Origin: an uncultured Bacteroidota bacterium
Lineage (GTDB): Bacteria; Bacteroidota; Bacteroidia; Flavobacteriales; Flavobacteriaceae
NCBI GenBank assembly: GCA_902560065.1
Contig: CACEKG010000001.1
Span: forward strand, 134,308 to 174,987
DNA length: 40,680 nt
Direction of reading: 5' to 3'
The notes under the pieces are model-generated. The model was not told the DNA's origin. It was given only the letters and a program-made list of their open reading frames with translations, and searched no databases. This document shows, piece by piece, positions 12,140 to 15,039 of this stretch (its first letter is position 1; each line of letters starts with the position of its first letter). Made by a program: the position numbers and the translations under genes.

Positions 12140-14338
12140 TTGAAATTTAAAATATCATTTTTATTTATTTTTCTTTCAATTTCTTCTTTTTCCCAAGAAA
12201 ATTTCGAAAAAAACAATAAAGAAATTAAAGCCTCTTTCTTTTCAGTTGAACCAAAAATTGATGGAAATATCTTATCTGACCCATTATGGATGAAAATAAA
12301 TCCAATAAAAGATTTAATTCAAATTAAACCAAGATTTGGACAAATTGCCTCCGAAAAAACTGAAATAAGAATTGCTTTCTCAGATAAAATACTTTTTTTA
12401 GGAGTTGTATGTTTTGACAAAAATCCTGAAAAGATTGTTGTTTCCGATTCGAGAAGAGATTCGGATCTTAATGATGAGGATAGCTTTTTATTTATTATTG
12501 ACACTTATAATGATCAACAAAACGGTTTTCTTTTTGGAACAAATTCTAATGGTATGGAATACGATGCTCAAATCGATAATGAAGGTAAAGGAAATTTTAA
12601 TGCTAATAGGCAACAAGGTGGAGTGATTGGAGGAACAAATATAAATTGGGATGCGTCTTGGGAGGTTAAAACAAATATAGGTGATTATGGTTGGAGTGCT
12701 GAATTTGCAATTCCTCTTAATTCAATTCGTTTCAGTCCTGGTAAAAATAAAATTTGGGGTATAAATTTTCAAAGAAACATAAGTAAGAATTCTGAAACAG
12801 TATATTGGTCTCCTTTACCTCTTGGATTTGAAATTAAAAGACTTTCTCTTGCAGGTAAATTAACTGGTATAAATATTAAAAACCCTAAAAACCTTAAAAT
12901 AATTCCTTATAGTCTCATTCAAAGAGTTAATGAAAAATCTAATAAAACAAAAAATACGAATTTTGATAAAGGCATAGATGTAAAATACAGTTTAACTCCT
13001 GGTTTAACCCTTGATTTAACATATAACACAGATTTTGCTCAAGTTGAAGTTGATGATCAACAAATAAATATTGATAGGTTTAACCTTTTTTTTCCTGAAA
13101 AAAGATCTTTCTTTTTAGAAAATGCAGGCCAATTTTCTGTTGGAAGTCCTGGTGAAGTTGATTTATTTTTTAGCAGAAGAATAGGTCTATCTGATAATGG
13201 TTCTATTATACCTATAATAGGTGGGTCAAGAATTTCAGGTAAAATTGGTCAAACCAACATTGGTCTTTTAAACATGTATACTGACGATATTATTTCATCT
13301 AATATTGATAAAACTAGTTTTACGGTTGCAAGGATAAATCATGACTTTTCTAAAAGCAGATCTTCTTTTGGTGGAATAATAATAAATAAACAAAACATTA
13401 AAAGTAGTAGTAAATATAATAAAGTCTATGCATTAGACGGGAAATGGGGTCTTGGAAAAAAAGCTGAAATAACTGGCTTTATTTCTAAAAGTAATTCTCC
13501 TGAAATAAATGCTAAAGATCATGCACTAAGAATTGAGAGTGTATATAATTGGGACGGATGGAGATTATTAGCTAATTATACTGAAGTAGGTGAAGGTTTT
13601 AACCCAGAAGTTGGTTATTTGAGCAGAAACGATGGATTTATAAAATTCGGTTCCTTAATATGGAAGCAATGGAGACCAAAAAATACTGGGAAACTTTTAG
13701 AGGTAAGACCACATATTGCCCATAGATCGTTTTGGAATTTTGATAGAGAATTAACAACAGGATGGACACATATTGATAACCATTGGGTTTGGGAAAGCGG
13801 TTTTGAAATTCATACTGGAATTAACCTTACAAAAGAGGGAGTATTTAAAGATTTTGAAATATCAAACGTAAAAATTGAAAAAGGAGAATATAAAAACAAA
13901 GAACTGCAACTTGTTATTATAACTAATCCCAATGCTAAAATATCATATAAAACAACAACTTTTATTGGTGGATACTTTGGGGGAAATCGAGTTTCCAGCA
14001 TAAATAAAATAAATTTTCGTTTAGGTAATAAATTTAATTCCTCTCTATCTCTAAATTATAATAATTTAAAATTAAGGAATGGTACAATAAATGCATTTAT
14101 ATCAGGATTACGGTTTGCTTACTCTTTCACACCAAGAATTTTTATTCAAAGCCTAATTCAGTATAATAATATTTCAAATATTACATCTTTAAATGCTCGT
14201 TTTGGATGGATAAAAAATGCAAACACTGGACTTTTTCTTGTATTAAATACTATAAGAGATAGAGATTTTATTGATAAAATTGATAATCAAATAATAACCA
14301 TTAAATACAATTACCAATTTGACATTTTAGGCAAGTGA
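12140..14338 (+). CDS. CBM9-like / DUF5916 domain outer-membrane-type protein
   Basis: A 732-residue exported protein. A signal peptide (about residues 1-19, ending SSFSQ) is followed by a carbohydrate-binding family 9-like domain (about 30-230, with KIDGNILSDPLWMKI and NWDASWEVKT). The DUF5916 region follows (about 240-732), with the family segment YNTDFAQVEVDDQQINIDRFNLFFPEKRSFFLENAGQF broken here into its key part FFPEKRSFFLEN. The C-terminal half has alternating strands that suggest a membrane beta-barrel. The start is TTG at 12140, the only one that gives the signal peptide. It follows the TIM-barrel gene closely, suggesting a joint sugar-related surface role. The molecular function of DUF5916 is not established. 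Confidence 0.82.
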   Translation: MKFKISFLFIFLSISSFSQENFEKNNKEIKASFFSVEPKIDGNILSDPLWMKINPIKDLIQIKPRFGQIASEKTEIRIAFSDKILFLGVVCFDKNPEKIVVSDSRRDSDLNDEDSFLFIIDTYNDQQNGFLFGTNSNGMEYDAQIDNEGKGNFNANRQQGGVIGGTNINWDASWEVKTNIGDYGWSAEFAIPLNSIRFSPGKNKIWGINFQRNISKNSETVYWSPLPLGFEIKRLSLAGKLTGINIKNPKNLKIIPYSLIQRVNEKSNKTKNTNFDKGIDVKYSLTPGLTLDLTYNTDFAQVEVDDQQINIDRFNLFFPEKRSFFLENAGQFSVGSPGEVDLFFSRRIGLSDNGSIIPIIGGSRISGKIGQTNIGLLNMYTDDIISSNIDKTSFTVARINHDFSKSRSSFGGIIINKQNIKSSSKYNKVYALDGKWGLGKKAEITGFISKSNSPEINAKDHALRIESVYNWDGWRLLANYTEVGEGFNPEVGYLSRNDGFIKFGSLIWKQWRPKNTGKLLEVRPHIAHRSFWNFDRELTTGWTHIDNHWVWESGFEIHTGINLTKEGVFKDFEISNVKIEKGEYKNKELQLVIITNPNAKISYKTTTFIGGYFGGNRVSSINKINFRLGNKFNSSLSLNYNNLKLRNGTINAFISGLRFAYSFTPRIFIQSLIQYNNISNITSLNARFGWIKNANTGLFLVLNTIRDRDFIDKIDNQIITIKYNYQFDILGK

Positions 14339-14363
14339 GTTTTATTTTTATAATTTTAATTAA

Positions 14364-14579
14364 ATTTTTAAAGTTATCGGAAAAGTAATTTTAAGTATTG
14401 GAATATTTATATCGATTTTAGGGTTAATTTTAATATTAGCTGATAAGTATCCTAATTTTTATAATAATCCTTTAGACTTTAAATATAAAAAAGAAAATTT
14501 TAGTTTCTATTTTCCTCTTGGAACCTCAATACTTTTAAGTATTATTTTTTCTTTACTATTTTATTTGTTCAAAAAGTAA
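14364..14579 (+). CDS. DUF2905 small membrane protein without a canonical start codon
   Basis: A frame of about 71 codons with two hydrophobic helices (first about 25 residues and last about 20) around the DUF2905 hallmark ENFSFYFPLGTSILLS, which follows a NPLDFKYKK stretch where relatives have LPGDI. The family is a short inner-membrane protein of unknown function. In this frame the nearest upstream stop is TAA 14361-14363 and no ATG, GTG or TTG lies before the conserved part. The candidates are an ATT start at 14364, a -1 frameshift from an overlapping GTG frame (14335-14388) at the heptamer TTTAAAG (14367-14373), or a base error. The stop is one base before the DUF1643 gene. Confidence 0.68.
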   Translation: MFKVIGKVILSIGIFISILGLILILADKYPNFYNNPLDFKYKKENFSFYFPLGTSILLSIIFSLLFYLFKK

Positions 14580-14580
14580 A

Positions 14581-15039
14581 ATGATTGGGCATGCAATTTT
14601 TTCAAAAGATGGGCTATGTAGATATAGTTTATATAGAATTTGGGAAAAAAAATTGCCAAAAGTTTTATTTATAATGCTGAATCCTTCAATCGCATGCGCA
14701 TATAAAAATGATCCAACAATAAAAAAACTAATAGCCTTTTCTAAATCATGGGGCTTTGGAGGTTTTTATGTAGGAAATTTATACAGTAATATAAGCCCAT
14801 ACCCTAAAAATATTGTTTCAATTAAAAAAATTCTAGAAAAAAAAAATGTTGATTCAATAAAAAGTATGGTAAAAAAATCTAAATTAATTATTTATGCTTG
14901 GGGAAATAATGAAAAGACTCCCTTTTGGTTAAAAAAAATAGTAAAAGAACCCTACTGTATTGAATTATCAGTCAATGGTGTTCCAAAACATCCTTTATAC
15001 CTAAGAAAAACACTTAAATATCAAAAAATAAAATTTTAG
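14581..15039 (+). CDS. DUF1643 domain protein
   Basis: A 152-residue soluble protein that fits DUF1643 along its whole length: RYSLYRIWEK near the start, FIMLNPSIACAYKNDPTIKK (residues about 30-50), the WGFGGFYVGNLYS segment, IIYAWGNN (about 103-110) and the final NGVPKHPLYL. The usual NPSTA motif reads NPSIA here. The family has no established function; it is found scattered in bacteria and phages and appears cytoplasmic. The gene starts one base after the DUF2905 stop and ends seven bases from the convergent tRNA-Leu. Confidence 0.85.
   Translation: MIGHAIFSKDGLCRYSLYRIWEKKLPKVLFIMLNPSIACAYKNDPTIKKLIAFSKSWGFGGFYVGNLYSNISPYPKNIVSIKKILEKKNVDSIKSMVKKSKLIIYAWGNNEKTPFWLKKIVKEPYCIELSVNGVPKHPLYLRKTLKYQKIKF

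Follow-up and report, generated by a model that had tools for sequence, protein, structure and literature searches.

To our knowledge, conserved starts at codons other than AUG, GUG and UUG have been recognized in few bacterial genes apart from infC, the gene of translation initiation factor 3 (IF3); the infC gene of M. xanthus, dsg, starts with AUC. Across genomes infC has a conserved near-cognate start, ATC in Streptomyces and ATT in E. coli (PMC5472188), and it autoregulates from its AUU, AUC or AUA codon. IF3 represses the non-canonical starts of both infC and Streptomyces sigR, which heads an operon with a partner (PMC5472188), and it lowers initiation on weak third-base pairs such as AUU/CAU (PMC10158994). 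In S. aureus, conserved near-cognate starts have been described for cvfC1 (AUU), which encodes a 61-residue protein and is first in its operon, and for ccpN (AUA); AUU and AUA starts there give about 10% of the output of AUG in poor medium, with ccpN reaching up to 30% in rich medium (PMC13009471). Here we describe a further candidate, the small membrane-protein gene DUF2905 in a stretch of 40,680 nucleotides from an uncultured member of the Flavobacteriaceae (the whole stretch is called the window below). We conclude that the non-canonical start of this gene is probably real, conserved and lineage-specific and that its codon is probably AUC, that is, a known kind of start in a new gene.

The window belongs to a 1.31-Mb assembly (G000) that is divided into 68 contigs and is 66% complete. 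The DUF2905 frame, like all the features of the window described here, lies on its forward strand, where it is closed by TAA at 14361-14363 and then reads ATT (14364-14366), TTT AAA GTT ATC GGA AAA. A preliminary description of this DNA had remarked that the gene has no canonical start, and direct reading confirmed that ATG, GTG and TTG are absent near its 5' end and that the TAA and the ATT following it stand exactly where that description placed them. Residues 6-69 of the frame match PF11146 over the full length of the profile (1-64 of 64; E-value 9.6e-17, 61.4 bits against a gathering cut-off of 22.2), and since the profile starts at the Gly of Gly-Lys (residue 6), the codon ahead of the usual Gly is ATC at 14376-14378. 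We propose this ATC as the start codon, which would give a coding sequence of 14376-14579, ending in TAA. A missing start is unusual on the 175-kb contig that holds the window. Of its 168 non-overlapping frames with 60 codons or more from stop to stop, six, DUF2905 included, have no ATG, GTG or TTG within their first 26 codons. Four of the other five have a standard start 27 to 48 codons in, which looks real, and the fifth lies over tRNA-Tyr and tRNA-Thr genes.

How do related genomes begin this gene? The family set comprised 22 DUF2905 loci, namely those of G000, of one other genome of its genus (G001), of a genome belonging to a different genus (G206, also L065, contig CAJPUR010000006.1, uncultured Flavobacteriaceae) and of 19 other Flavobacteriaceae; the weak matches L031-L038 and two matches without a locus were left out. 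Gene order in G001 is identical to that in the window and the DNA is 95% identical over 841 bases; there too a TAA closes the frame, and it is followed by TTA AAT TTT AAA GTT ATC GGA, a stretch whose single ATH codon ahead of Gly is the ATC. The corresponding sequence of G206 is TTA ATT GTC ATC GGA AAA. Thus ATC directly before Gly-Lys is common to three genomes of two genera, and none of the three has ATG, GTG or TTG at the 5' end. The same position is occupied by ATG in 11 of the 19 other loci of the family, while a further six have ATG three or four codons earlier and two have TTG. A wider set was drawn from a scan of genome contigs, of which the best 80 of 157 matches were considered and 79 loci taken (L108, with a match starting right at the locus edge, was left out); in 78 of these 79 there is an ATG, GTG or TTG near the Gly position, and the lone exception is again G206. 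Four DUF2905 loci from another family of the order start with ATG. No further genome of the lineage with the putative AUC start appeared among 295 relatives of G206 (eight matches) or 395 genomes of the order (five matches), loci L124, L138 and L139 from these searches having ATG, and three of the four genomes of the genus of G206 gave no match to the DUF2905 profile.

These comparisons also bear on the possibility that translation begins at the AUU of 14364-14366, four codons upstream of AUC, which would add a short N-terminal extension. The preliminary description had put forward this ATT among its options, and as far as the kind of start is concerned it agrees with our reading; it is the place that is probably wrong. 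An AUU start would be a weak start of a sort already known, as in E. coli infC (PMC5472188), the codon is the first after the in-frame stop, and in G206 an ATT lies two codons ahead of the ATC. However, G001 has TTA AAT TTT AAA GTT in this stretch with no ATT, the ATT of G206 is elsewhere, and upstream of ATC the window and G206 agree, without gaps, at only 16 of 30 bases, whereas the ATC 12 bases downstream is present in all three genomes. We therefore consider initiation at AUU improbable.

Could the gene instead have lost its ATG in an ancestor, so that it is no longer translated from a start of its own and is either unexpressed or expressed only by leakage? The absence of a standard start from three genomes is what would be expected of such a gene, but the changes in its codons speak against this. 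Over 66 codons compared between the window and G206, 30 are identical, 20 differ synonymously and 16 non-synonymously, and the base differences at the first, second and third codon positions number 11, 6 and 28. This pattern shows purifying selection between the genera, and the frame is free of internal stops in G000, G001 and G206. A dead gene is accordingly an unlikely explanation, on a par with initiation at AUU.

Much less credible is the programmed -1 frameshift that the preliminary description had offered as another option. A GTG at 14335-14337 overlaps the stop (TGA, 14336-14338) of the upstream DUF5916 gene (12140-14338; PF19313, E-value 7.4e-22) and opens a 17-codon frame (14335-14388) ended by TAA at 14386-14388, relative to which the DUF2905 frame lies one base back. 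The slippery-like heptamer T TTA AAG at 14367-14373 stands in this frame in the right phase for a -1 slip that would continue into DUF2905 with no stop between, and on both the GTG and the heptamer the earlier account was exact. Yet the T run of G001 has four T against five in the window, and with one T fewer the GTG-opened frame ends as AAA TTT TAA before the heptamer is reached. DUF5916 lies upstream in G001 and was not found in the locus of G206, where the upstream gene is divergent, so that no same-strand frame leads into DUF2905; the heptamer is thus in phase with an upstream frame in the window, has lost that phase in G001 and has no upstream frame at all in G206. TTTAAAG occurs 48 times on the two strands of the window against 41.4 (standard deviation 6.65) in shuffled sequences, an in-phase T TTA AAG is present in 25 of the 168 frames of the contig, and the 80 bases that follow the heptamer fold no more strongly than shuffles do (z 0.03; pseudoknots lie outside this fold test). 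We reject the frameshift on these grounds and regard the heptamer as a chance match and the GTG-opened frame, which stops earlier in G001 and has no counterpart in G206, as probably no gene. A conserved AUC would explain the start of DUF2905 without any need for a ribosomal frameshift, and the locus illustrates how an A/T-rich leader can mimic a slippery site. As for a base error in the A/T run concealing a standard start, the last of the earlier suggestions, the assemblies are fragmented (G000 into its 68 contigs, of which C10 carries a gene for an M23 peptidase that looks frame-broken), but three of them, one from another genus, agree on ATC and on the absence of a standard start, and together with the purifying selection this makes such an error highly improbable.

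If DUF2905 does start at AUC, which other genes of these bacteria might start in a comparable way? We found infC, taken as a positive control, in 10/10 and in 59/60 genomes and considered 40 loci from Flavobacteriaceae, namely that of G000 (L132, contig C4, minus strand) and others in L127-L136 and L140-L169. One of them (L134) is cut by a contig edge; in all 39 intact loci ATG, GTG and TTG are absent from the 5' end and ATA is present. A non-standard start thus seems to be the rule for infC in this family, and the codon appears to be AUA. Leaders could be aligned in 38 of the 40 loci (L134 is cut and L151 is off pattern), and the triplet before the ATA is GCC in 25, GTC in 10 and GTT, CTC and ACC in one each. 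Before the DUF2905 ATC the triplet is GTT in G000 and G001 and GTC in G206, and G-pyrimidine-pyrimidine precedes the first ATG in 5/131 and 7/221 frames of G000.

The likeness extends further upstream. We built a matrix from 33 infC leaders, leaving out both the genus of the window and that of G206, and scored it on 475 kb of G000. With the base at +4 included, infC itself ranks first and the DUF2905 ATC fourth of 113,474 AT-N sites, and the latter is second of the 14,006 ATH sites that have 60 or more open codons. When only the 18 upstream bases (14358-14375, AATTAAATTTTTAAAGTT) are scored, it ranks 44 of 113,478, and none of 300 column-permuted matrices placed it as high. The likeness sits in the A-rich stretch, the rank being 46 without the last triplet and 11,682 with the triplet alone. 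Among 352 ATG-first leaders, one scores as high as the DUF2905 leader of the window, four as high as that of G001 and six as high as that of G206. We take this comparison of the DUF2905 leader with the infC leaders of the family as suggestive only.

Taken together, these observations lead us to think it likely that DUF2905 is translated from the AUC at 14376-14378 by the initiator tRNA and would be subject to the same restraint by IF3 as infC. The tRNA would read AUC with a mismatch at the third base and the protein would begin Met-Gly-Lys. As AUC would be a weak start and IF3 disfavors initiation complexes of this type, the output of DUF2905 would be low and would go up together with that of infC under a shortage of IF3. 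This low output may also be passed on to the gene that follows. DUF1643 (14581-15039; PF07799, E-value 3.9e-32) is separated from the DUF2905 stop by a single base (junction at 14577-14583), in G206 it overlaps that stop by ATGA (L016 near 1495), and it adjoins DUF2905 in five of the 107 locus records compared, the five being those of G000, G001 and G206, the genomes with ATC. DUF1643 may be translationally coupled to DUF2905, and termination-reinitiation would then hand on the low output of the weak start. PADLOC and NCBIfam gave no match for DUF2905 or for DUF1643, the latter matches phrog_3230, a family without known function, and a literature search on DUF2905 found nothing.

Among the described systems, one close parallel is sigR, which like DUF2905 is a gene other than infC that has a non-canonical start and heads an operon with a partner; it differs in its codon (GTC), gene family and phylum, and IF3 repression was measured there (PMC5472188), whereas for DUF2905 it is a prediction. 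With infC the proposed start shares its conservation and, in Flavobacteriaceae, what looks like a similar leader, but DUF2905 is not IF3 and the control that we propose would therefore act in trans. The conserved starts of cvfC1 and ccpN are likewise comparable, although the near-cognate starts of S. aureus are predicted to be guided by an extended Shine-Dalgarno motif (PMC13009471), while Bacteroidetes are naturally without Shine-Dalgarno sequences (PMC6847099). Titles and abstract openings in the literature, with subscription papers mostly outside reach, held no mention of an AUC start in DUF2905 or of an AUA start for infC in Flavobacteriaceae. A putative AUC start kept across two genera of such a phylum raises the question of how the ribosome chooses AUC. 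Without Shine-Dalgarno sequences the cue must be a different one, and the infC-like leader is a concrete candidate that opens IF3 control beyond infC in Bacteroidota to testing. It is conceivable, although we hold it doubtful, that an A-rich stretch followed mostly by G-pyrimidine-pyrimidine before AUH-G marks near-cognate starts in the Flavobacteriaceae and that the DUF2905-DUF1643 pair has been drawn into an IF3-controlled set with infC. A practical consequence is that gene finders limited to AUG, GUG and UUG overlook genes of this type.

Several points weigh against initiation at AUC or against the meaning that we attach to the leader. G stands at -3 of the ATC, a place most often taken by A in the ATG-first genes of G000 (76/131), and A at -3 favors initiation in F. 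johnsoniae (PMC6847099). The expected place of the start is not fixed, for in 6 of the 17 relatives led by ATG that codon lies three or four codons upstream of the Gly position. Only three genomes carry the ATC, and they probably reflect one ancestral event. The quality of the G001 sequence is also a concern, as that genome is 7% contaminated and its DUF2905 holds 17 N, none of them in the start region, and the codon comparison with it is limited to 50 codons. Among the 19 other DUF2905 leaders that were scored, the ATG-led L009 (0.9976) surpasses G206 (0.9965), with L014 at 0.987 and L003 at 0.978. Finally, the leader comparison was made only after the likeness had been noticed, and the three genomes in which it is seen are related.

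Further stretches of G000, amounting to 300 kb and 297 frames, were screened for missing standard starts, and infC was recovered, as expected. The screen brought up other frames. One of them, for an M23 peptidase (L191:14484-15002, contig C10), has no start and is preceded by sequence that continues in another frame, and it looks broken rather than started in a non-standard way. An Smr-domain frame (G000:C2:19791-20051) has no standard start before the domain. A CAP-domain gene (L180:4077-4565, G000:C2:24077-24565) has a 5' end resembling a signal peptide and reads AAA ATT AAA, where a gene of the same contig whose leader is alike (C2:33209-33832) has AAA ATG AAA; the CAP-domain gene gave partial matches only, in one of five relatives. 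Both the CAP-domain and the Smr-domain genes are unproven candidates for a non-standard start.

A good second case of a putative non-standard start is recX, which has no standard start in either G000 (L183:15087-15626, contig C3) or G001 (L194). Both genomes read AAA ATT AAA AAA TCC where G206 and G420 have ATG AAA AAA TCA. In G378 there is a TTG nearby, and in G421 an ATG stands further in, at a position where G000 has another ATT, so that two ATT codons are candidates. At its first ATT, the recX leader does not resemble those of infC: 68 of the 352 ATG-first leaders score as high. The recX case suggests that near-cognate starts are perhaps commoner in the genus of the window and that they do not require a leader like that of infC.
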